Shown piece after piece: positions 1 through 10,666 of a stretch of 10,666 nt of DNA (the first letter of the stretch is position 1; the number at the start of each line of letters is the position of its first letter). A model generated the notes under the pieces. The model had not been told where the DNA came from and searched no databases. It was given only the letters and a program-made list of their open reading frames with translations. Both the position numbers and the translations under genes were made by a program. The DNA is taken from the NCBI GenBank assembly GCA_002278985.1, contig NCJP01000029.1, positions 1-10,666 on the forward strand, read 5' to 3'. The stretch is from Erythrobacter sp. 34-65-8 (GTDB lineage: Bacteria; Pseudomonadota; Alphaproteobacteria; Sphingomonadales; Sphingomonadaceae).

Positions 1-383
1 CTACGAAGCTGAAGAAGTCGGGCATTCGCAACGGAGCCGAAGTGGTTGCGGCGATTGAAGTCTCCAAGGCGATCGAGGCTGAAATGCTGACCTTCGAAAT
101 GCTGTTCGTGCTCGATACTCAGTCGATGGGCCGCTTGCTGCGCGATGTCGACAACGTCCAGCTGGTCACCGCTCTCAAGGGCCTGGAGGAGGCCGACCGC
201 GGGCCATTCTTCGCCGCCATGTCGAGCCGCGCTGCGGACGGCGTGCGCGACGAAATCGAGATGCTCAGCAAGGTCAAGCGCAAGGACGTGCTGGCCGCCC
301 AGAAGGCCGTGATCGAAATTGCACGCCGCCTGCGCGACGAAGGCGAGATCGCACTGGGGGCAGGCGATGGCGAATTTGTCTGA
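1..383 (+). CDS. fliG: Flagellar motor switch protein FliG, C-terminal part (5' end outside window)
   Basis: This is the rotor protein that turns stator force into rotation; it sits on the MS ring and contacts FliM and MotA. The open frame runs in from base 3 without a start, so only about the last 126 residues are visible and the FliF-binding N domain is missing. What remains is the FliG C domain: a FEMLFVLD stretch, then ALKG, AMSSRAAD, VRDE and an AQKAVIEIARRL helix. Aligned by eye with E. coli FliG, the torque-helix charges are kept: Lys264 (in ALKG), Arg281 (in SRAAD), Asp288, Glu in place of Asp289, and Lys in place of Arg297. The C-terminus ends in GDGEFV, like the E. coli GEDTYV tail. 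The last 17 bases overlap the start of fliH, which fits one operon. The family call is firm; the true start lies upstream of the window. Confidence 0.97.
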   Translation, partial: TKLKKSGIRNGAEVVAAIEVSKAIEAEMLTFEMLFVLDTQSMGRLLRDVDNVQLVTALKGLEEADRGPFFAAMSSRAADGVRDEIEMLSKVKRKDVLAAQKAVIEIARRLRDEGEIALGAGDGEFV

Positions 384-975
384 CCTGTGGCGGGACGAAA
401 CGCCGCACCCGGTGCCCGGCTGGATCGCCGCCCTCGGCCAGCCGCACGGATTTCGAGACGAGGTCCGCGCGCCGACTGTGCCGGAGCCGGTTGCAGAACC
501 GGATGAGCAGGACACCGTGGCGGCAGCTTTGGCCGAGGCCTATGCGCGAGGCGCGGAAGACGCGCGGGTGCAATGCCGGGAGGAACAGGAAGCCGCAGCG
601 GCAGCGCAGGGCCGGCTGGCGCTGGCCTTTGCGCGGCTTGATGCAGAGGCCGCGCTCGCCCTGCGGCAGGCCCTGGCGACAGCGGTTGCGACCCTGTGCG
701 AACAGGTGATCGAGCCTGCCCGGATTGACCGGGCAGCACTCGAGCAGCGTTGCGCAGACCTGGCGACGCAGTTGGGTGAGGCTGCGGCCCCGCTGGCGCT
801 CCAGCTCCATCCGGATGATCTTGCCTTGCTCTCGGCCGAAACTGTGGCGGGCTGGACCATCCGGCCCGATCCGGGCCTGCCGCGCGGGGCCTTGCGCCTT
901 GAAGGGCCGGACGGTGTCCTCGCCGATGGGCCGGAAGAATGGCGGCGGCTGATTGCCGAGGCGCTCGGCCAGTGA
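367..975 (+). CDS. fliH: Flagellar assembly protein FliH (export ATPase regulator)
   Basis: FliH is the cytoplasmic peripheral stalk of the flagellar export apparatus; it binds the ATPase FliI, restrains it and anchors it to the C ring through FliN. The ATG at 367 gives 202 residues beginning MANLSDLWRDE. The open frame reaches back to 319, but those 16 extra codons lie deep inside fliG and look unrelated, so the later start is preferred; it overlaps fliG by 17 bases and has a purine-rich GGGGGCAGGCG just before it. Visible signs are a proline-rich N-terminus, then an Ala/Glu/Arg-rich coiled coil (about residues 48-100), and the conserved C-terminal part with LHPDD and DPGLPRGALRLEG, typical of FliH/YscL. 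FliH is poorly conserved, so position between fliG and fliI supports the call. The stop codon overlaps the GTG start of fliI. Confidence 0.92.
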   Translation: MANLSDLWRDETPHPVPGWIAALGQPHGFRDEVRAPTVPEPVAEPDEQDTVAAALAEAYARGAEDARVQCREEQEAAAAAQGRLALAFARLDAEAALALRQALATAVATLCEQVIEPARIDRAALEQRCADLATQLGEAAAPLALQLHPDDLALLSAETVAGWTIRPDPGLPRGALRLEGPDGVLADGPEEWRRLIAEALGQ

Positions 976-2303
976 TCGGCCTGCTGGAGCGCGAGCTTGG
1001 GCGCATGGCCGCCAGCAAACTCGACCTCGCCCCGATGCGGCTGGGGCGGGTGGTGCGCTGCGATGGCGGGCTGATCGAGGTGGCCGGGTTGCCGGTGCCG
1101 GTCGGCACGCTGTGCCGCATCGCCGGAGATCATGATACGCCCGAAAGCACTGCCGAGGTGATCGGCTTCCGCGCCGGTCACAGCCTGATGATGTTGCTCG
1201 GCGACAGTGCCATGTTGCGCCCGGGTGCGCTGGTGCGCAGCGAAGGCAGTCCCGGCATGGTCCGGGTGGGCGAAGCCCTGCTCGGCCGTGCAGTCGATGG
1301 CAACGGCCGCCCGCTCGACGGGGGGCCGCGGCCACAGTGCGAGGCGCTCTGGCCGCTGGGCGGCAAGCGTGAAGGGGCGCTGGAGCGCGCCTCGGTGACG
1401 CAGCCGTTCGATTGCGGGGTGCGGGCGATTAATGCCCTGACGACGGTCGGGGTGGGTCAGCGGGTCGGCATCATGGCCGGTTCCGGGGTCGGCAAATCGG
1501 TCCTGATCGACATGATCGCCGAAGCGGGGCAGGCCGACGTGACCGTGATCGCCCTTGTGGGGGAGCGGGCGCGCGAAGTGTCCGATTTCGCCCGCCGCCA
1601 TCTGGCCGGGCCGCATGGATCGCGCACCGCGCTGGTCGCGGTTCCGGCCGATCATGCGCCCAACCTGCGCCTGCGCGGGGCACAATATGCCTGCGCGGTG
1701 GCAGAGCACTTTCGCGCCCAGGGGCTCAAGGTGCTCCTGATCCTCGACAGCCTGACGCGCCTTGCCCATGCCGCGCGGGAGATCGGTTTTCTGCTCGGCG
1801 AACCCGGCGCGGCGCGCGGCTATCCCCCGTCGGCCCTGGCGGCGGTTACCCGGCTGGTCGAGCGGGCGGGCAATTCAGCCGGCAGTGGCGGGTCCATTAC
1901 CGGCTTCTACACCGTGCTGGCCGATGGCGATGACCAGGCCGATCCGGTGGTCGATACGGCCCGCGCCATCCTCGACGGGCATCTGGTCCTGTCGCGGGAA
2001 CTGGCTCAGCAGGGACACTATCCCGCCATCGACATTCCCGCCTCATTGAGCCGGGTCATGGACGCCATTGCGGCACCGGAGCACCGCGCTGCCGCACGGG
2101 CGTTCCGGTCCCTGATGGCCAGCTGGCACGCCAACCGCGATCTGGTGATGATGGGGGCCTATCGTGCAGGGGCCGACCCGCAGCTTGACCGGGCGATGGC
2201 CCTGAAACCGGCGCTCGATGCCTTCCTCCAGCAGGAACCGCAGGAGCGGGCCGACCTGGCGGACAGCATCTGCCAGTTGCGGGCAATCATGGCCGATGCC
2301 TGA
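972..2303 (+). CDS. fliI: Flagellum-specific export ATPase FliI
   Basis: FliI is the hexameric ATPase, related to the F1 beta subunit, that prepares and delivers substrates to the flagellar export gate. The sequence shows the Walker A loop GSGVGKS (residues 170-176), the catalytic Glu in VGERAREV (Glu198), Walker B VLLILDSLTRLA with Asp259, the GYPPS loop, and the FliI-typical stretch from GGSITGFYTVLADGDDQ through ILDGHLVLSRELAQQGHYPA. Length is 443 residues, normal for FliI. I choose the GTG at 972, which sits in a GTGA overlap with the fliH stop and begins the usual N-terminal helix (reads IGLLERELG). An ATG at 939 would run deep into fliH, and the ATG at 1005 would cut the N-terminal helix. 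The gene overlaps fliJ by 8 bases. No catalytic residue appears to be lost. Confidence 0.97.
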   Translation: MIGLLERELGRMAASKLDLAPMRLGRVVRCDGGLIEVAGLPVPVGTLCRIAGDHDTPESTAEVIGFRAGHSLMMLLGDSAMLRPGALVRSEGSPGMVRVGEALLGRAVDGNGRPLDGGPRPQCEALWPLGGKREGALERASVTQPFDCGVRAINALTTVGVGQRVGIMAGSGVGKSVLIDMIAEAGQADVTVIALVGERAREVSDFARRHLAGPHGSRTALVAVPADHAPNLRLRGAQYACAVAEHFRAQGLKVLLILDSLTRLAHAAREIGFLLGEPGAARGYPPSALAAVTRLVERAGNSAGSGGSITGFYTVLADGDDQADPVVDTARAILDGHLVLSRELAQQGHYPAIDIPASLSRVMDAIAAPEHRAAARAFRSLMASWHANRDLVMMGAYRAGADPQLDRAMALKPALDAFLQQEPQERADLADSICQLRAIMADA

Positions 2304-2721
2304 CCTGCGGCGTTCCCGCAGGTTGCTGGCCCGGCTTGAACGGCTGCACGCGGTCGAGCGTCAGGAGGCCCTGGCCCGGCTGGCGGAGACACGCGCCGAG
2401 CAGCGCCGGATGGAGGACATCGCCTCCCGCAGCCGGATGCTGGCAGGCGGCGACGCGCTTGCGGGCGGCACGTTTGACGGCGCCGGGCTGGCCGCTGCGC
2501 TGGCCTTCCAGGCCCGCCTGACCAGTCTAGTGAGCGATGCGCGGCGGATGGGCGAGCGTGCCAGCGCGGCGGAAACGGTGGCCCGCGCCGGTTTTGCCGA
2601 GGCTGACCGCCGCCTCGAACGGGTCCGCGAACGCCGTCAACACGCCGATCGCAAGGCCGATGAACAGCAAATGGCACGGAGCTTGCTCGATAGCAGTCAG
2701 AAACCACGGGGGCTCTTCTGA
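2296..2721 (+). CDS. fliJ: Flagellar export protein FliJ
   Basis: FliJ is a small cytoplasmic coiled-coil protein that inserts into the FliI hexamer like the gamma subunit of F1 and links it to FlhA; it also cycles export chaperones. The ATG at 2296 gives 141 residues starting MPDLRRSRRLLARLERLH and overlaps the fliI stop by 8 bases. An open frame reaches back to 2218, but that part lies inside fliI. Nearly the whole protein is charged, helical and rich in Ala, Arg and Glu, with heptad-like spacing and no glycine-rich core except around residues 53-67 (AGGDALAGGTFDGAG), which may be a turn between two helices. That is the expected FliJ hairpin. The sequence itself is weakly conserved, so the assignment rests on size, coiled-coil character and position directly after fliI. 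Its 3' end also carries a sigma-54 promoter match (2672-2687). Confidence 0.88.
   Translation: MPDLRRSRRLLARLERLHAVERQEALARLAETRAEQRRMEDIASRSRMLAGGDALAGGTFDGAGLAAALAFQARLTSLVSDARRMGERASAAETVARAGFAEADRRLERVRERRQHADRKADEQQMARSLLDSSQKPRGLF
2672..2687 (+). promoter_or_regulatory. Predicted sigma-54 (RpoN) promoter, -24/-12 element before fliK
   Basis: The sequence TGGCACG-GAGC-TTGCT matches the sigma-54 consensus TGGCACG-N4-TTGCW at every defined base. The invariant GG (2673-2674) and GC (2685-2686) are separated by exactly 10 bases. Transcription would start about 12 bases beyond the -12 element, near 2697-2698, giving a leader of roughly 23 bases that still contains the GGGGG (2708-2712) ahead of the fliK ATG at 2721. 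It lies in the coding end of fliJ, so it must also serve as codons. Many alphaproteobacteria transcribe later flagellar genes from sigma-54 promoters with an NtrC-type activator such as FlbD; that activator and its binding site are not visible here. No other equally good match was seen on either strand. Confidence 0.7.
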
Positions 2722-3776
2722 TGTATTTGCTCAATCTGCCTGTCCTAGCGCCAGCCCCGCCCGCCCAGCCGGTGCAAGCACCTGCCATGTCTGTGGAGGG
2801 GCCGCAAAAGGCCTTTCCAGAGCTGCTGGCCGCGCTTTTTGAGCATGTTTCCCCGCTCATGGCATCGATGCCCATGGATGCGCAGATGCCTGTGGCCGAT
2901 CAGGCCGGCAGCGAATTGCCGGATGCGGCAGAGCCGACCGGCAAGGATTTGCCGGATGAGGCAAACGTGACAGCAGATCTTGCGGCCTTCAATCCGGTTT
3001 TCGCGCTTCTGACCCCGCTTCAATCAGCGCTGGACCCCGCCATCGAGCCCGTAGCGCAAGCTCCGCTTCCGGGGGCGCCTGCGCCCTTCATGGCGAAGGC
3101 TTCGCCTGCTGCAGAAGCGCAGCCTGCTGAAGCGCAGCTTTTGCCGGAAGACGATCACCAGCCCGATAGCGAAACTCCGGTCAGGCCGATGGCTGCGCCC
3201 GTGGGTGCCCTTCCAGCTGTGGAAGCAGCGCCGGTTCCCGTAAGGGTGGTCGAGGCGCTGGCGATAGCTGCACCGGTGCGGGAATCGCCTGTATCATCTG
3301 TGCCGGTCCAATCGCCTGCGCCCCAGCCTCAGCCGACTGCTGGCACCCAGCTGGAGCAACTGGTCGAAGCACTCGCCCAGGCGCGCGAAGCCGGCAAAGG
3401 TGCGCGGGGCGACCTGACCTTGCGCCATGCCGAATTCGGTGCCGTGGCGATCCGGATCGACCAGCTCGACGGCGATATGCGGGCTACGGTTTCCGGGCGC
3501 GATCCGGGCCTGGCCCCGGCCATGATTGCCGCGCTCGCCGACAGGGCTTCGGCCGGTCCCGGCGAACAGCACCAGCGCGGCCAAGAGGCCAGCCAGCGCG
3601 GCAGCGAACAGGGCAGCGGCTCGGCGCAGGCCGGGCAGGCCGATACCGGCAGCTCTGGCCGGCGCGGCACCCCGTCACACATGCGCCCAGGCCAGCCCTT
3701 CGGCGAACCGCCAGCCTCAGCTGACGGCAGCGACAGCGCAGCAGAAACCCGCGAGCGGCAGGGCCGCTTCGCCTGA
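2721..3776 (+). CDS. fliK: Flagellar hook-length control protein FliK
   Basis: FliK is a secreted molecular ruler that measures the hook and, through its C-terminal domain, makes FlhB switch export from hook to filament substrates. The 351-residue product starts at the ATG overlapping the fliJ stop (TGATG). Residues 1 to about 205 are low-complexity, rich in Ala, Pro, Glu and Gln, as expected of the unfolded ruler part; it includes a small imperfect repeat (ELPDAAEPTGKDLPDEAN). Residues from about 228 (GARGDLTLRHAEFGAVAIRI, then a stretch ending AALADRA) resemble the Flg_hook domain core, but it is short. The last 70 or so residues are Gln/Gly/Ser-rich and hydrophilic, also usual for FliK tails. 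Third-codon positions in the first 600 bases look less GC-biased than in neighbouring genes. Recognition depends on the Flg_hook core plus position. Confidence 0.85.
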   Translation: MYLLNLPVLAPAPPAQPVQAPAMSVEGPQKAFPELLAALFEHVSPLMASMPMDAQMPVADQAGSELPDAAEPTGKDLPDEANVTADLAAFNPVFALLTPLQSALDPAIEPVAQAPLPGAPAPFMAKASPAAEAQPAEAQLLPEDDHQPDSETPVRPMAAPVGALPAVEAAPVPVRVVEALAIAAPVRESPVSSVPVQSPAPQPQPTAGTQLEQLVEALAQAREAGKGARGDLTLRHAEFGAVAIRIDQLDGDMRATVSGRDPGLAPAMIAALADRASAGPGEQHQRGQEASQRGSEQGSGSAQAGQADTGSSGRRGTPSHMRPGQPFGEPPASADGSDSAAETRERQGRFA

Positions 3777-3807
3777 TTGATCCCTCCAATTGCAAGGATG
3801 AACAGCA

Positions 3808-4392
3808 ATGGCCAAGGCCAAGGCAAACGATGAACAACCCGCCAAGTCGGGCGGCAAGATGAAGCTGGTGATGATCGCGGTTGCCATGCTCGCGGTGGGT
3901 GCGGGCGGGGCGTATGGTGCCTTTGCCATGGGGCTGCTGGGCGGCCACGTCGACGCCGGGCCCGATCTGCCCCGCCCGGTCGCCAAGGGGGGCGAGGATC
4001 CCTACGCGCCGCCTGCCGATACCAAGGGCAAGGATGCCGGTGTCGAGCCGGTCTATGGCGAAGGGGGCAGTGAATACCGCCGCCTCTATTACAGCTTCGA
4101 GGAAGGCTTCACCTCCAACCTCAAGGATTCGACCGGGCTGGTCCAGCTTACACTGGCTGTTTCCACCACATATGACGGGCGCGTGCTCCAGTGGCTCAAG
4201 CGGCACGAGCTGGCGATCCGTTCGGCGGTGCTGGTTGAACTGGCTTCCACGCCGGAGGAAGATGCCTTCACGGAGCCCGGCAAGAAGCGGCTTCAGGAAC
4301 GGCTCGTCAAGGCGATCAACCGCGTCCTGACCGAACAGGAAGGTTTCGGCGGTGTCGATGCGGTCCACTTCCGCTCGTATCTCGTCCAGTGA
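3808..4392 (+). CDS. fliL: Flagellar basal body-associated protein FliL
   Basis: FliL is a single-pass inner-membrane protein whose periplasmic domain forms a ring around the stator and supports torque. The 194-residue product has a short basic cytoplasmic start (MAKAKANDEQ), one membrane helix at about residues 19-41 (VMIAVAMLAVGAGGAYGAFA), a Pro/Gly/Asp-rich linker, and then the periplasmic domain (from about residue 90), which contains YYSFEEGFTSNLKDS, LVQLTLAVSTTYD and a helix LQERLVKAINRVL, ending VHFRSYLVQ. This matches the FliL fold with its beta strand-rich core and a C-terminal strand. The ATG at 3808 is preceded by AAGGA (3794-3798). A 31-base gap separates it from fliK, the largest gap in the window, without a visible terminator or promoter. 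Its stop overlaps the GTG start of fliM. Confidence 0.95.
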   Translation: MAKAKANDEQPAKSGGKMKLVMIAVAMLAVGAGGAYGAFAMGLLGGHVDAGPDLPRPVAKGGEDPYAPPADTKGKDAGVEPVYGEGGSEYRRLYYSFEEGFTSNLKDSTGLVQLTLAVSTTYDGRVLQWLKRHELAIRSAVLVELASTPEEDAFTEPGKKRLQERLVKAINRVLTEQEGFGGVDAVHFRSYLVQ

Positions 4393-5279
4393 AGGCGCAG
4401 CACGACTTTGTCGCGGAGGGCCGCGCGGCGCAGCATTGCGCCGAATTGCTCGGCCGGGCGCAGGCGCCGTTCGACATGGCGGCGGCGAGTGCCGAGTTCG
4501 CGGCTGAACTGGCGCTGTCCCTGCCAGAGCGGTTGCAGGCATTGCTCGCCGGGCCACGGGTCATGGTTTCCGACTGGCCGGCCGAAGCCATGGCCGCCGG
4601 CGAACTGGCCAGTAACTGGTCGACGCCATCGATCCATTTTTCCGTTGCCCTGGGCCGGAATGCGCCGCGCTTTGTCATCTCGTTCGATAACGCCGCCGCG
4701 CTGTCACTGACCGACCGCCTGTTTGGCGGGCGCGGCGGGCGGCAGGACGATGTTCCCAGAGCCTTGCCCAATTCGGCGGTGCTGTCGGTCGAGCGGCTGG
4801 TCTGCGCCGTAGCCGAGACCCTGGCGCGGCTGTGCGGGCAGGAAGGGGAAGCGCCGCTGATCGCTTCGCAAGCCGCCTTCCGCAGGTTGGGCGTGTTCCG
4901 CCGCAACGAACGCTGCCTGAGCTGGAGCTTTACGGTGGAGCAGCAGGCGCAGGACCCGTGGAGCCTGCGCCTCGCAGTGCCGGAAGCCGCCATGCGTGCC
5001 GTGCTGGAATCCCACGCCGGGGGTAGTGCCGCACCGGCACCCGCAACGATGCGCGGGCCGAATGCCGAACCGTTCGGTGCGATCCCGCTCCCGCTCACCG
5101 CGGTGCTGGCAGAGCTGCGTCTGCCGCTCGCCCAGCTGGCTGCGCTCCAGCCGGGGCAGTGCATTCCTCTTTCCATCCGCCGCGAGGTTCCGCTCGCAAT
5201 CGGCCAGCGCATCATTGCGGCGGGTACGGTCGGCACGCTCGACGAGCGGGTCGCGCTGCGCCTGACGCAGATCAACTGA
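4389..5279 (+). CDS. fliM: Flagellar motor switch protein FliM (N-terminally short)
   Basis: FliM is the middle C-ring protein; it binds FliG above and FliN below, and normally receives phospho-CheY. The 296-residue product has the CheC-like middle domain with the FliG-contact loop FGGRGGR (residues 112-118, the GGXG motif), preceded by FVISFDNAAALSLTDR, and a C-terminal SpoA/FliN-like domain (about residues 231-295, AIPLPLTAVLAELRLPLAQL to RLTQIN). The start is a GTG at 4389 in a GTGA overlap with fliL. Canonical FliM is about 330 residues and opens with a conserved peptide of the type LSQ-EIDALL that binds CheY-P; none is present here, nor in the codons just upstream in the same frame. The protein is divergent from enteric FliM, but domain order and its place between fliL and fliN make the call firm. 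Confidence 0.92.
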   Translation: MKAQHDFVAEGRAAQHCAELLGRAQAPFDMAAASAEFAAELALSLPERLQALLAGPRVMVSDWPAEAMAAGELASNWSTPSIHFSVALGRNAPRFVISFDNAAALSLTDRLFGGRGGRQDDVPRALPNSAVLSVERLVCAVAETLARLCGQEGEAPLIASQAAFRRLGVFRRNERCLSWSFTVEQQAQDPWSLRLAVPEAAMRAVLESHAGGSAAPAPATMRGPNAEPFGAIPLPLTAVLAELRLPLAQLAALQPGQCIPLSIRREVPLAIGQRIIAAGTVGTLDERVALRLTQIN

Positions 5280-5294
5280 TCAAGGAGACCTGAC

Positions 5295-5579
5295 ATGACA
5301 AACCATCCGGCCGATCTCGGCCTCATCGGCGAGGTCACCGTGAGCCTGAGCGTGGAGCTCGGGCGGACCGAGCTGGCCCTGCGCGAGGTGATGGCCCTGG
5401 GGCAGGATTCGGTGGTGGCGCTCGACCGCCTTACCGACGAGCCGCTCGACGTGCTGGTCAACGGCCGCCTCATCGCCAAGGCGGAAATCGTGGCGGAGAA
5501 CAACCGGTTTGCCCTGCGGATCGTGGAGCTGATTGGGGGCCGACGCGCCACCGATGCGCCGGTGTCGGAGGCTGCGTGA
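5295..5579 (+). CDS. fliN: Flagellar motor switch protein FliN
   Basis: FliN forms the lower C-ring with FliM and docks the FliH-FliI complex. The 94-residue product is almost entirely one SpoA (surface presentation of antigens) domain, about residues 9-82: IGEVTVSLSVELGRTELALR, a MALGQDSVVALDR strand, then LDVLVNGRLIAKAEIV and RFALRIVELI. These match the FliN pattern in which VNG-LIA-GEVV is the most conserved part. It lacks the longer acidic N-terminus of enteric FliN but is otherwise complete. The start is well set by AAGGAG (5282-5287), 7 bases before the ATG, the strongest ribosome site in the window, which fits the need for many FliN copies per motor. A 15-base gap separates it from fliM. 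The stop overlaps the fliO start. Confidence 0.96.
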   Translation: MTNHPADLGLIGEVTVSLSVELGRTELALREVMALGQDSVVALDRLTDEPLDVLVNGRLIAKAEIVAENNRFALRIVELIGGRRATDAPVSEAA

Positions 5580-5854
5580 TGGGCTGGTATCTTGCCAAGA
5601 TGCTGCTGCTGGTGCCGCTGCTGGGCCTGATGATCTGGGGCAGCCTGAAACTGACCCAGCGGGTCCAGCAGAAACTGACCGGCGCCAATGCGGGGCGTGT
5701 GCAACGGGCACGGCTGGTTGAAACCACCTTCCTCGGCCCCGGCCTGAAACTGGCGGTGGTGGAGTTTCGCGGGCGGGAAATCCTGCTCGGCTGCACACGC
5801 AACGGGCTGACCCGGCTGGCGGATGTGCCGACCTCTGAGGAGCACGGGCAATGA
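5579..5854 (+). CDS. fliO: Flagellar biosynthetic protein FliO
   Basis: FliO is a small membrane protein that helps assemble the FliP ring of the export gate and is not part of the finished channel. The 91-residue product has one N-terminal membrane helix (about residues 4-22, [19 protein letters not shown]) and then a basic cytoplasmic domain with [20 protein letters not shown] and [19 protein letters not shown], the usual FliO pattern of a short beta-rich domain ending in a leucine-rich ILLG motif. The ATG at 5579 overlaps the last base of the fliN stop; a GTG three bases earlier (5576, GTGA overlap) is an equal alternative adding one residue. The gene ends in an ATGA overlap with fliP. FliO is weakly conserved, and position before fliP strengthens the call. 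Confidence 0.9.
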
Positions 5855-6609
5855 TCGTCCGGCTCGTGATCCTGCTTGGCGTGATCGCCGCGCTGGCCCT
5901 GCCCGATGCGGCACTGGCCCAACCGGGTTTGGGCGGGGCGCTCGACCGGGCGCTGGCAGCCTCGCCCACCAGCGATGCAACGCCGCTATCGCTGTCGCTG
6001 CAGATCTTGCTGCTGATGGGGCTGCTCACGCTGCTCCCGGCGATCGTGCTGATGATGACCAGCTTTACCCGCATCCTGATCGTGCTCTCGATCCTGCGGC
6101 AGGCGCTGGGATTACAGCAGAGCCCGCCCAACCAGGTGCTGATCGGGCTGGCCCTGTTTCTCTCGCTGTTCGTCATGGCCCCCACCCTCGCGCAGGTGAA
6201 CGCGCTGGCGATCGAGCCTTATGCCGCAGGTTCCCTTTCGGGCGAGCAGGCCATCGCTGCAGCAGCCGAGCCGTTCCATGCCTTCATGATGAGCCAGACG
6301 CGCGAGACCAACCTCGCCATGTTCGCCGACATCGCCGGTGCGGGATCCTTCGCCAGCCCTGACGACGTGCCGTTTTCCATCCTGCTGCCGGCGTTCGTGA
6401 CCAGCGAGCTGGAAACCGCGTTCCAGATCGGTTTCATGCTGTTCCTGCCCTTCCTGGTGATCGACCTGGTGGTCGCCAGCGTGCTGATGAGCCTGGGCAT
6501 GATGATGCTCTCGCCCTCGATCGTCTCCCTCCCGTTCAAGCTGCTCCTGTTCGTGCTGGTCGATGGCTGGGCGTTGCTGATGGGCAGCCTCGCGATGAGT
6601 TTCGGGTGA
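5851..6609 (+). CDS. fliP: Flagellar export gate protein FliP
   Basis: FliP forms the pentameric core of the FliPQR export gate in the inner membrane, through which all axial proteins leave. The 252-residue product starts with a cleavable signal peptide (residues 1-23, hydrophobic core [12 protein letters not shown], probable cut after DAALA before QPG), unusual for an inner-membrane protein but characteristic of FliP. Conserved blocks follow: [19 protein letters not shown] (residues 69-87), [39 protein letters not shown] and [20 protein letters not shown], then MGMMMLSP-like and [13 protein letters not shown]. All are close to the family consensus. The start ATG overlaps the fliO stop (ATGA) and has GAGGAG (5837-5842) upstream. 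Length and motifs are complete, with four predicted mature membrane helices. Confidence 0.98.
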
Positions 6610-6622
6610 GGGGGCACAGGCG

Positions 6623-6895
6623 ATGAACGACGACGCCTCGCTGCTCGGCCTGATCGACCAGATGCTGTGGACCACGGCGCTGATTGCCGGTCCGATCCTG
6701 CTTGCTGCGCTGGCTGTCGGTCTGGTGGTCGGGATCATCCAGGCCGCCACCTCGGTCAACGAACAGACGCTCACCTTTGTCCCCAAGCTGGCAATCATCG
6801 CGCTGGTCATGGTGCTCATGGGCGGGTCGATGATGGCCCTTCTGAGCGACTTCCTGCGTGAAATCTTCGCCCAGATCGGCACCCTGGCGCGCTGA
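6623..6895 (+). CDS. fliQ: Flagellar export gate protein FliQ
   Basis: FliQ is a small two-helix membrane protein; four copies wrap around the FliP-FliR core of the export gate. The 90-residue product has two membrane helices, about residues 16-38 (ALIAGPILLAALAVGLVVGI) and about 55-75 (AIIALVMVLMGGSMMALLSD), joined by the highly conserved loop IQAATSVNEQTLTFVPK. Length equals the family norm of about 89 residues. The ATG lies 13 bases after the fliP stop, with a G-rich stretch (GAGGGGGCACAGGCG) as ribosome site. Its stop shares one base with the fliR start, consistent with coupled synthesis of gate subunits. Confidence 0.98.
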   Translation: MNDDASLLGLIDQMLWTTALIAGPILLAALAVGLVVGIIQAATSVNEQTLTFVPKLAIIALVMVLMGGSMMALLSDFLREIFAQIGTLAR

Positions 6896-7677
6896 TGCAG
6901 GCCGCCACCATCGCCTTTGCGCTGTTTGAGCAGCAGCTGCCGGAAGTGCTGTTCCTGTCCGTCCGGGCAGGGGCGGCGATGCTGGCCGCGCCGCTGTTCG
7001 GGGCGATGAGCGTGCCGGTGCAGTTGCGTGCCTTCTTCGGGGTCGTGCTGGCGGTCTTCATCCACCAGTGGATGCCCCTGCCGCCGCTGCCCGATCTGCT
7101 GAGCATGGCCGGCATGGTCGCCCTGCTGCAAGAGGTGGTGGCCGGCTTCGCGCTCGGGTTCGTGCTCCAGATCGCCTTTGCCATTCCGCTGATCGCGGCC
7201 GAACAGATCGCCGGCACGATGGGCATGGCCATGGCAACTTCGGTTGACCCGGCCAGTGGTTCGCAGTCCGGTGCGATCGGTCAGATGTTCAGCCTGACGC
7301 TGATCTTCGTATTCCTGGGCCTTGGCGCGCACCTGCTGTGGTTCGAGCTGCTGCTGGAAAGCTATCACGCCGTACCGCCCGGTCCGCTGGCACTGAGCGC
7401 CGAGGCCATGAAGCGCATCGTGATGTTCGGCGGGCAGATGCTGGTAACGGCGGCGGCCATTGCCCTTCCGGTGGTGCTGGTCCTGCTGCTGGTCCAGATC
7501 GCCACCGGGGTGCTGAGCAGGTCTGCCCCGTCGCTCAATCTGTTTGCGCTGGGCCTTCCGGCGGGGGTGCTGGCCGGCATTGCCGCTCTGATTGCAGTCC
7601 TGCCAGTAGTTTTCGAGCAATTCGCCGACGTGTCCCGCATCGCGGTGGAACAGGCTGCAGGCGTACTGCTGCCATGA
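6895..7677 (+). CDS. fliR: Flagellar export gate protein FliR
   Basis: FliR is the single-copy subunit that completes the FliP5FliR1 ring and closes the export gate helix. The 260-residue product is hydrophobic with several membrane helices. Family blocks seen are RAGAAMLAAPLFGAMSVPVQ near residues 24-43, LLQEVVAGFALGFVLQIAF and AAEQIAGTMGMAMATSVDP (where the QIAG-MGM pattern is typical), the GQMFSLTLIFVFL helix, and SRSAPSLNLFALGLPA, the counterpart of the conserved R-APQ-N-F-VG-P sequence. Start ATG overlaps the fliQ stop (TGATG) and the gene ends in an ATGA overlap with flhB. Length is normal for FliR and nothing appears missing. Confidence 0.97.
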   Translation: MQAATIAFALFEQQLPEVLFLSVRAGAAMLAAPLFGAMSVPVQLRAFFGVVLAVFIHQWMPLPPLPDLLSMAGMVALLQEVVAGFALGFVLQIAFAIPLIAAEQIAGTMGMAMATSVDPASGSQSGAIGQMFSLTLIFVFLGLGAHLLWFELLLESYHAVPPGPLALSAEAMKRIVMFGGQMLVTAAAIALPVVLVLLLVQIATGVLSRSAPSLNLFALGLPAGVLAGIAALIAVLPVVFEQFADVSRIAVEQAAGVLLP

Positions 7678-8807
7678 GCGAGCAGTCCCCCGGCGAAAAG
7701 ACCTTTGCTCCCAGCGCCAAGCGCCTGCGTGATGCGACGCAGAAGGGCGACGTGCTCCGCTCGAAAGAGCTGGCAACGGCGGTGGCCATGGTGGCAGGCC
7801 TTGCTGCACTGGTGGCGACCGGGCCATGGTTGCTGGCCGGGCTGGAAGGCGCAATGCGCGCCGGCCTCAGCTTCGACAAGGCGGAGCTGGAGCGCTTTAC
7901 CCCGCTGACCATGGTCGTGCTGGCGATGAAGGCGGTCCTGCCCCCGGTGCTGGTGATCGGGCTGGTGGTGCTGGTGGCCACGGTCGCCTCGCAGCTGCTG
8001 TTCGGCGAAGGGCGCTGGGTCGGTGCCAGCCTCGCGCCCAAGGCCTCGCGGATCAATCCGCTCGAAGGCCTCAAGCGGATGTTCGGCGTTCAGGGCCTGA
8101 TCGAACTGGGCAAGGGATTGCTCAAGATCGGCCTGCTCGGCGCGCTCGCGTGGTGGTGGGCGAGCGGGGCGATTGCGGGGTTGCTCGGGCTCGGCCGGGG
8201 CGATCTGGAAACCCAGCTCGGCACCGCATGGCAGGCCGGGCTCGATCTGCTGCTGATCCTGACCTTCGGCCTTGCCCTGATCGCGCTGGTAGACTGGCCG
8301 ATCCAGTATGTGCGGCGCCAGAACCGGCTCAAGATGACGTTTCAGGAAATGCGTGACGAGAGCAAGGAAGCCGAAGGTTCGCCCGAGCAGCGGGCCGCCC
8401 AGCGCCAGCGCCAGCGTGAGATGGCCCGCGGCGGGGTGTCGAAAGCGGTGCGCGAGGCGCAGTTCGTGCTGGTCAACCCGCAACACTTCGCCGTCGCGTT
8501 GGCCTATGACCCGGCGCTGGCTCCTGCACCCATCGTGCTGGCCAAGGGGCGGGGGGAAAGGGCGCTGGCCATGCGCGAACTCGCTGCGGAATTTGCCGTG
8601 CCGGTGCTGGAGTATCCTGCCCTGGCGCGATCGGTCTATTTCACCACGCGCGAGAACCAGGTGATCCGGGAGGAGCTCTATGTGGCCATCGCCGCGCTGG
8701 TGGCTTTCGTGATGGCACTGAAGCGCGGAGACCATCCGCCGAGTCCGCAGGTGGAAGTACCGCTCACCCTGCGGTTCGATGCCGAAGGCCGGCCGGCCGG
8801 GGGTTAA
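7674..8807 (+). CDS. flhB: Flagellar export switch protein FlhB (NPQH in place of NPTH)
   Basis: FlhB is the export-gate membrane protein that selects substrates; normally it cuts itself between Asn and Pro of an NPTH motif, which allows the switch from hook to filament export. The ATG at 7674 (ATGA overlap with fliR) gives 377 residues; the open frame reaches back to 7338 but that is inside fliR. The N-terminus KTFAPSAKRLRDATQKGDVL is the classical KTE-PT-KRL-DAR-KG pattern. Four membrane helices follow, then a cytoplasmic linker (RLKMTFQEMRDESKEAEGSP) and the C-terminal domain with LVNPQHFAVALAYD (Asn268-His271), PIVLAKGRGERALAMRELA, and EYPALARSVYF. Asn and Pro are kept but Thr is replaced by Gln. 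The stop TAA at 8805 ends the export-gate run; no flhA follows. Confidence 0.97.
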   Translation: MSEQSPGEKTFAPSAKRLRDATQKGDVLRSKELATAVAMVAGLAALVATGPWLLAGLEGAMRAGLSFDKAELERFTPLTMVVLAMKAVLPPVLVIGLVVLVATVASQLLFGEGRWVGASLAPKASRINPLEGLKRMFGVQGLIELGKGLLKIGLLGALAWWWASGAIAGLLGLGRGDLETQLGTAWQAGLDLLLILTFGLALIALVDWPIQYVRRQNRLKMTFQEMRDESKEAEGSPEQRAAQRQRQREMARGGVSKAVREAQFVLVNPQHFAVALAYDPALAPAPIVLAKGRGERALAMRELAAEFAVPVLEYPALARSVYFTTRENQVIREELYVAIAALVAFVMALKRGDHPPSPQVEVPLTLRFDAEGRPAGG

Positions 8808-8837
8808 CCCGCATGGGCGCAGGACGTTCTACCCGGC

Positions 8838-10256
8838 ATGGATAGCAGCACATCCTCACTGGTCTCGCGCCTCGGCGGCGGCAGCGGGGTCGATATGGTC
8901 AAGCTCGCCAGTGATCTGGCCGAAGCCCGCTATGCCACCCAGATTGCGCGGCTCGAATCCCGCAACGAGCAGCTCGAAGCGCGCGTTTCTGCCGCTGCCC
9001 AGTTGCGCGGGCAGTTCAGCCAGCTTGCCTCGGCGCTGGGCGAGCGGATCCGCACCGGCGATCTTTCCCCGCTGGCGACGATCGGCAGCCCGGCAGTGGC
9101 CGGAGTCTCGGTCGCGCCGGGAGCAAGCCCACGCGGCAGCTACAGCCTGGAAGTGACACGGCTGGCCCAGGGCCAGGTGCTGGCCTTGCCCGGCCCGGCC
9201 AGCGCCGCAGACCCGGTTGGTGAGGGCGCGCTGACGATACGCTTCGGCTCGGTGGCCGATGGAGGCTTCACGGCTGACAGCGGCCGGAACCCGCTGGAAT
9301 TCACGGTGGCGGCAGGCGAAACGCTGGAGCAAGTCGCCGCGCGCATCACTGCGGCCAATGCCGGGGTCAGCGCCTATGTCGCCAACGGGACCAATGGCCC
9401 CGAACTGGTGCTCAAGGGCGGTGAAGGCGGCGCAAGCGGCTTCATCGTCGAAGTGACCAACGCCGGCAGCGCCGGGCCGCTCGACGGCCTTGGCTGGAAC
9501 CCTGCTTCGGATAGCGGGCAATTGCGCCAGGGCGCGCAGGATGCCGCCTTCCTGCTCGATACCGTGGCGATGACCAGCCCGACCAACCGGGTGACCAATC
9601 TTCCCGCCGGCATCCAGCTCGACCTGCGCGGGACAAACACCGGCGCGCCGACCACGGTCGGCTTTGCTGACCGCAGCGGCCAAGTGGCCGGAGTGATGGG
9701 GGATCTCGTCGCCGCCCTGAACGATATCGCCGGGCAGGTCCGCGCTCTGGGCGATCCGCAGGCGGGCGACCTTGGGTCCGACCCCGGCCTGCGGGCCTTG
9801 CGCAGTGCCTTTGCCTCCCTCTCGGCCGCAGTGGTCATGCCCAACGCCGCCACTGGCGAGCCGCGCACGTTGGGAGACCTTGGCCTTTCGCTCAACCGCG
9901 ATGGCAGTTTCCGGCTGGACAGCGACCGCCTGAACCGAACGCTGACCGAGAGCCCGCAGGGCGCTGCGGCGATGTTCACCACCGGGCTGTTCGGCGTGTT
10001 TGCAACGGTCGACCGGCTGGCCCGCACCGCCTCCTCACGCGCGGATCCGGGCTCTCTGGCAGGCTCCGAAGCGCGCTACAGCGCGCAGCTTCAGCGCAAC
10101 GCCGATGCGCTCGACAAGATCGCCGAGCAGCAGGAACGCCTGCGCGAACGGATGACGCGCGAATTCGTCTCGGCCGATACCCGCGTCGCATCCTCCAATT
10201 CGACCCTGTCGTTCCTGCGCACGCAGATCGACATGTGGACGGCAAGGAGCCAGTGA
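8838..10256 (+). CDS. fliD: Flagellar filament capping protein FliD (HAP2)
   Basis: FliD is secreted through the flagellum and forms the cap at the filament tip, under which flagellin folds. The 472-residue product starts with the FliD D0 pattern GSGVDMVKLASDLAEARYAT (residues 16-35), followed by a heptad helix (QIARLESRNEQLEARVSAAA) and the N-domain. The middle is Gly/Ala/Asn-rich beta sequence (VEVTNAGS, ADGGFTADSG). The C-terminus has the second D0 helix: SAQLQRNADALDKIAEQQER, MTREFVSADTRVASSNSTLS and FLRTQIDMW, matching the conserved FliD_C end in which a final helix ends near S-L--L. The ATG at 8838 follows AGGA (8821-8824) by 13 bases, a rather long spacing; 30 bases separate it from flhB. 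It is one base away from the next ORF, so cap and chaperone are probably co-translated. Confidence 0.95.
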   Translation: MDSSTSSLVSRLGGGSGVDMVKLASDLAEARYATQIARLESRNEQLEARVSAAAQLRGQFSQLASALGERIRTGDLSPLATIGSPAVAGVSVAPGASPRGSYSLEVTRLAQGQVLALPGPASAADPVGEGALTIRFGSVADGGFTADSGRNPLEFTVAAGETLEQVAARITAANAGVSAYVANGTNGPELVLKGGEGGASGFIVEVTNAGSAGPLDGLGWNPASDSGQLRQGAQDAAFLLDTVAMTSPTNRVTNLPAGIQLDLRGTNTGAPTTVGFADRSGQVAGVMGDLVAALNDIAGQVRALGDPQAGDLGSDPGLRALRSAFASLSAAVVMPNAATGEPRTLGDLGLSLNRDGSFRLDSDRLNRTLTESPQGAAAMFTTGLFGVFATVDRLARTASSRADPGSLAGSEARYSAQLQRNADALDKIAEQQERLRERMTREFVSADTRVASSNSTLSFLRTQIDMWTARSQ

Positions 10257-10257
10257 C

Positions 10258-10653
10258 ATGCTGGCCTTGCTGGATGATCCCGCCACGGCCTATCGCCGGG
10301 TCGATCTCGACGCCCGGATCGAAGGAAGCGACGGGGCCGGGCTGACCCGGCTATGCCTGGAACGTGCCATTGCGGCACTTGCCCGCGCGCGGACGCAGGA
10401 TGGGCGGGCGCAGCGAGCGGGCGCGCTGGAGCAGGCCGGATCGGCACTGATCGCCCTGGCGGTCGCCTTCGGCGCAATCTTCAGTCGCCTGCAGCCGATG
10501 GTGTATGGCGATACCGATGCGCAACCGCTGCCGCACTCGCCGGCGCTGGTTCCGGTATTCATCCACCTGGGGATCGTGCTGATGATGGGCGTCTATATTC
10601 CGCCAGCGCTGGCCGAGTGGTACCGCCTGGCGGCCCGGCTGATTGGCGGTTGA
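10258..10653 (+). CDS. fliS: Hybrid ORF: FliS-like N-terminus joined to HyfF-like C-terminal membrane segment
   Basis: Residues 1 to about 65 look like FliS, the flagellin export chaperone: DPATAYRRVDLDARIEG, LTRLCLERAIAALARA and then ALEQAGSALIAL, matching FliS helix 1-3 of alphaproteobacteria. From about residue 65 the character changes. AVAFGAIFSRLQPMVYGD, then PHSPALVPVFIHLGIVLMMG and VYIPPALAEWYRLAARLIGG look like the C-terminus of HyfF-type proton-channel subunits of hydrogenase-4/formate hydrogenlyase (pattern MVFGE, then a HLALVLxLGLYIPPxLAxW helix). A soluble chaperone should not have this hydrophobic tail, and the FliS hydrophilic helices 4-5 are missing. The ORF is in frame throughout with 131 residues, about FliS size by coincidence. 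The start has AAGGAG (10244-10249), 8 bases before the ATG, and lies one base after fliD. The HyfF reading is pattern recognition from memory, not a search. It could be an assembly join, a rearrangement, or a genuine fusion. Confidence 0.6.
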   Translation: MLALLDDPATAYRRVDLDARIEGSDGAGLTRLCLERAIAALARARTQDGRAQRAGALEQAGSALIALAVAFGAIFSRLQPMVYGDTDAQPLPHSPALVPVFIHLGIVLMMGVYIPPALAEWYRLAARLIGG

Positions 10654-10657
10654 CGGG

Positions 10658-10666
10658 ATGACTGCA
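10658..10666 (+). CDS. Possible start of a downstream gene (three codons only)
   Basis: An ATG at 10658 opens M-T-A five bases after the stop of the preceding ORF and runs off the end of the window. The spacing fits a tightly packed operon, with only a weak GACGGG ahead of it. If the tail of the preceding ORF truly comes from hyfF, the next gene would be expected to be a hydrogenase subunit such as hyfG, because hyfG follows hyfF in known hyf operons; that is inference from context only, since three codons carry no identity. Confidence 0.25.

Follow-up and report, generated by a model that had tools for sequence, protein, structure and literature searches.

The window, the whole of contig C338 (10,666 bp) of assembly G000, closes on an open reading frame that poses a simple question: is it a gene? 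The 131-residue ORF (10258-10653, plus strand) begins with 67 residues of FliS type and runs on in frame into the C-terminal 64 residues of HyfF; its stop codon lies 13 bases from the end of the contig, in an assembly of 422 contigs and 1,998,282 bases that is 70.46% complete. Very probably the join is a read- or assembly-level chimera at the contig end and not a gene. This reading draws on two sequences that between them account for nearly the whole window, the genome G059 of the same species and the metagenomic hyfF locus L018; the layout is as follows.

1 to 60, no strand: 5′ contig tail, origin not found; unmatched in G059, where the match starts at 61
61 to 10257, plus strand: native flagellar block, gapless and collinear with G059
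10258 to 10458, plus strand: first 67 codons of fliS; the G059 gene runs to 120 codons
10447 to 10458, plus strand: junction word CTGATCGCCCTG, matching G059 fliS at 12/12 and L018 hyfF at 11/12 positions, in the same frame in both
10459 to 10653, plus strand: foreign hyfF 3′ end (last 64 HyfF residues and the stop codon), in frame with fliS
10654 to 10666, plus strand: foreign bases past the hyfF stop up to the contig end, matching L018 with two mismatches

The HyfF half is readily recognized. Residues 63-131 match positions 416-484 of the 484-position hydrogenase 4 subunit F profile (NCBIfam NF005045, E 2e-25), which, together with the identity of residues 1-67 to an intact FliS-like protein, bears out the earlier note's description of a FliS start and a HyfF-like tail in one frame. 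The ORF scores 89.8 bits, below the family cut-off of 543 bits, and unlike a complete HyfF it lacks the roughly 415 leading profile positions with the antiporter-type domain; Proton_antipo_M (PF00361), present in the full-length HyfF of L018, finds no match in it. The FliS half is less easily named. NCBIfam returned no family for the first 65 residues alone, and Pfam matched neither the whole ORF nor either half searched separately. The first 67 residues show 100% identity to the N-terminal end of P0002, a 120-residue protein of Altererythrobacter sp. H2, and intact P0002 has no Pfam match either, so the absence of a full-length FliS domain (PF02561) from the ORF is a weak test. P0002 and its relatives P0069, P0071 and P0072 are FliS-like but fall below the Pfam FliS cut-off or receive no score, three relatives reaching 23.3, 16.1 and 14.3 bits against a curated cut-off of 26.7. 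In its source record P0002 is annotated 'flagellin', which looks like a misnomer. The usual neighbour of fliS, the gene of the flagellar export chaperone, is fliD, and here an ORF with FliD_N and FliD_C domains (8838-10256) directly precedes the fused one. Since Pfam is silent for the ORF, its halves and intact P0002, the putative FliS identity of the ORF start rests on the relatives of P0002 and on gene order. Only 67 residues of the species' 120-residue FliS are kept; the final 53 are replaced.

The first parent of the contig is the same-species genome, which was found by a search within the genus and consists of a single contig of 3,238,348 bases (99% complete). Window positions 61-10458 align to it in a single gapless block of 10,398 bases at 98.8% identity, with one mismatch at 63 and none again until 593. 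The block encodes the FliG C-terminus, a FliI-type ATPase, FliP, Bac_export_1 (FliR type), Bac_export_2 (FlhB type) and FliD, with further fli genes named by eye. Beyond the break G059 carries an intact fliS of 120 residues at the same place, and its translation is identical to P0002; in G001, a member of the same genus, FliS likewise continues as FliS. The 3′ remainder of fliS was sought in G000 itself with a 1,201-base stretch of G059 that begins at fliS; with 40 of 140 initial candidates scored, nothing matched except the 102 bases that C338 itself contains, in a search that contigs shorter than 3 kb may escape.

The second parent comes from elsewhere. From 10447 to the contig end the window matches L018 (JAJYSM010000016.1, 'Proteobacteria bacterium isolate DX1.bin48', an unplaced Proteobacteria MAG) at 95% in DNA over 220 bases, the last 208 bases corresponding at about 95% to the 3′ end of hyfF and the bases that follow it, and at 99% in amino acids over 68 residues (64-131). 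This hyfF is the best of at least 47 confirmed loci for the tail; after it, the next-best among the matches listed are Lysobacteraceae and Rhodanobacter records, and none of the loci listed is identical to the tail in DNA. The gene is full length (profile positions 3-484 of 484, 847.8 bits against the cut-off of 543). It is preceded by an antiporter-type ORF and followed directly by one that carries domains of the complex-I 49-kDa and 30-kDa types, neighbours that we take to be those expected of a hyf operon. In G000 there are, outside the tail, only weak matches, two on C416 and one on C255 (best 98.8 bits), in a search that may miss contigs below 3 kb; C416 aligns to a stretch of G059 that carries that genome's own weak HyfF matches. 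All 10 of the G000 contigs below 3 kb that were fetched read N throughout, so negative results for this assembly may overlook such contigs.

The switch between the two parents is sharp. Over 10201-10446 the window agrees with G059 at 244/246 positions versus 57/246 for L018; over 10447-10458 the scores are 12/12 versus 11/12; over 10459-10480 they are 7/22 versus 20/22, and from 10481 to 10666 they are 57/186 versus 178/186. The switch thus falls within 10447-10458, inside the interval 10441-10470 in which the earlier note had placed a breakpoint, and is a genuine property of the contig sequence. The word at the switch, CTGATCGCCCT[G], is 11-12 bp common to both parents and is read in both genes as CTG ATC GCC CTG (L-I-A-L); because fliS and hyfF read it in the same frame, the join stays in frame. 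Such a word is not rare, as words of 12-16 bases are shared between fliS and eight hyf loci elsewhere.

The join itself is confined to this ORF among the proteins compared. A protein search with the ORF returned 71 matches, 57 to the HyfF part only and 14 to the FliS part, and none of the 71 contains it. The FliS-side matches comprise P0002, which served as the reference for the FliS C-terminus, 12 proteins whose C-terminus is related to that of P0002 (E 2.7e-11 or better) and P0068, which runs into RadC. Three proteins were considered as join-spanning and rejected: with loose settings the alignments of P0060 and P0064 covered residues 1-91, but the C-termini of these two match that of FliS (E 6e-18 and 6.5e-20) rather than HyfF, and P0068, whose alignment reached residue 114, matches HyfF with an E value of only 0.031, its C-terminal part being RadC. 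The whole fused protein matched in 11 of 59 relative genomes, G000 itself included. By query range these matches are FliS-side in G001, G005, G009, G010, G015 and G007 and tail-side in G049 and G043, and those in G046 and G021 are weak and lie in frames of 649 and 1071 residues. The match in G001 covered residues 1-89 and was likewise rejected as join-spanning: by BLASTP its FliS aligns over 1-67 only and then continues into a FliS-type C-terminus. The earlier note had reasoned that, were the fusion real, the strain would have lost the flagellin-binding half of FliS. With fliS intact in the same species and the FliS C-terminus retained in P0002 and in all but one of the 13 other FliS-side proteins, this is unsupported, and the consequences drawn from it for FliS function should be dropped.

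Two of the database entries look chimeric themselves. P0068 (199 residues, from a 779-bp contig) has a FliS-like start of about 46 residues in common with P0066, a normal FliS-like protein of 118 residues, before it passes into RadC, and so has the look of a second chimera involving FliS, comparable to ours. P0070 (73 residues, from a 1860-bp contig) has, by eye, a lipoprotein-like start, and its final 30 residues are those of the HyfF tail of our ORF. It, too, looks chimeric and seems to carry the hyfF allele of our tail; both have GVYIPP where L018 has GLYIPP.

The opposite end of the contig is also unmatched. Positions 1-60 find no match in G059, though the reading frame stays open across the switch into FliG, and they are probably a second chimeric end. 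Their 26-residue translation matches nothing in Pfam or NCBIfam, and none of the six genomes behind the hyfF loci contains a source for them. Within G000 these bases match themselves only, although contigs below 3 kb may escape that search; across 398 genomes of the phylum, with two candidates scored per listed genome, they return, apart from themselves, two marginal matches, 25 and 28 bases long. Two unmatched ends on one contig fit a cause in assembly or library preparation better than a biological one.

The control set comprised 19 of the other 421 contigs, of which ten (C333-C337, C342 and C380-C383) consisted entirely of N and were dropped; of the nine readable contigs, six aligned to the 2,420,000 of 3,238,348 G059 bases compared, and C339, C341 and C302 remained unplaced. 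Seven of the 12 ends of the six contigs aligned to the last base, which counts against the chimera reading in that unmatched tails are not the rule. The other five ends carried unaligned tails of 16-440 bases: 403 at the 3′ end of C300, 440 at the 5′ end and 67 at the 3′ end of C301, 54 at the 3′ end of C343 and 16 at the 5′ end of C416. The two longest (C300 2918-3320 and C301 1-440), unaligned to the part of G059 compared, are foreign or strain-specific, and the C300 tail matched none of eight genomes, G059 and G001 included. Strain differences could explain such tails. Overall, the control is small and mixed, and establishes neither a foreign origin for these tails nor C338 as a typical case.

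Inter-genome chimeric contigs are known from metagenome assemblies, and C338 resembles them in passing abruptly from one genome to an unrelated one, near a contig end and at a short word common to both. Two parents from different organisms meet at this breakpoint, G059 matching up to 10458 and L018 from 10447, and the locus that the switch interrupts is intact in the same species. The sequence of events would be that the contig first traces a flagellar cluster belonging to an Altererythrobacter-type bacterium, conspecific with G059; that inside fliS it passes, via the 11-12 bp word shared with hyfF, into the DNA of an unrelated bacterium; and that it stops 208 bases further on, the source of the foreign DNA presumably being close to the L018 MAG, the relatives of whose hyfF belong to Lysobacteraceae and Rhodanobacter. 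The join probably arose in the library, as a chimeric read, or during assembly rather than in a cell. The k-mers of most (de Bruijn) assemblers are longer than the shared word, so a simple graph error may not suffice and a template switch or chimeric read may have to be invoked; a chimeric read lengthening the contig by roughly one read and an error in the graph are equally likely. Of the three origins that the earlier note had offered, an assembly switch at a short shared stretch is therefore the one well supported by the comparison.

Another of these origins, a real fusion, would mean that a piece of a foreign hyf operon was inserted within fliS, truncating FliS, and that the fusion is perhaps expressed. 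The open frame across the join would be in keeping with such an event, and a microhomology of 11-12 bp could also act as a site for illegitimate recombination inside a cell. However, the foreign part stops with the contig after 208 bases, fliS is intact in G059, G000 yields no other close hyfF-type match (contigs below 3 kb may escape the search), the join recurs in none of the 71 protein matches, and the other contig end is unmatched as well. An in-frame fusion formed with an unrelated bacterium's DNA by illegitimate recombination, whose product would be a FliS fragment anchored in the membrane, is accordingly very improbable, as is the insertion on which it depends. The remaining origin, a rearrangement of the native chromosome that brought together fliS and hyfF of the species itself, is nearly refuted: a native hyfF might be missing from an assembly that is only about 70% complete, but neither the complete same-species genome nor G001 has a match above the HyfF family cut-off (best 102.4 bits against 543), and the closest loci for the tail among the matches listed belong to an unplaced Proteobacteria MAG and then to Lysobacteraceae and Rhodanobacter.

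Were the join real, two unrelated bacteria would have contributed to a single fused gene, and an export chaperone would have lost part of its length. Read as a chimeric contig end, the finding has value for quality control: ORFs that cross such ends can be deposited in protein databases, where they look like domain fusions.
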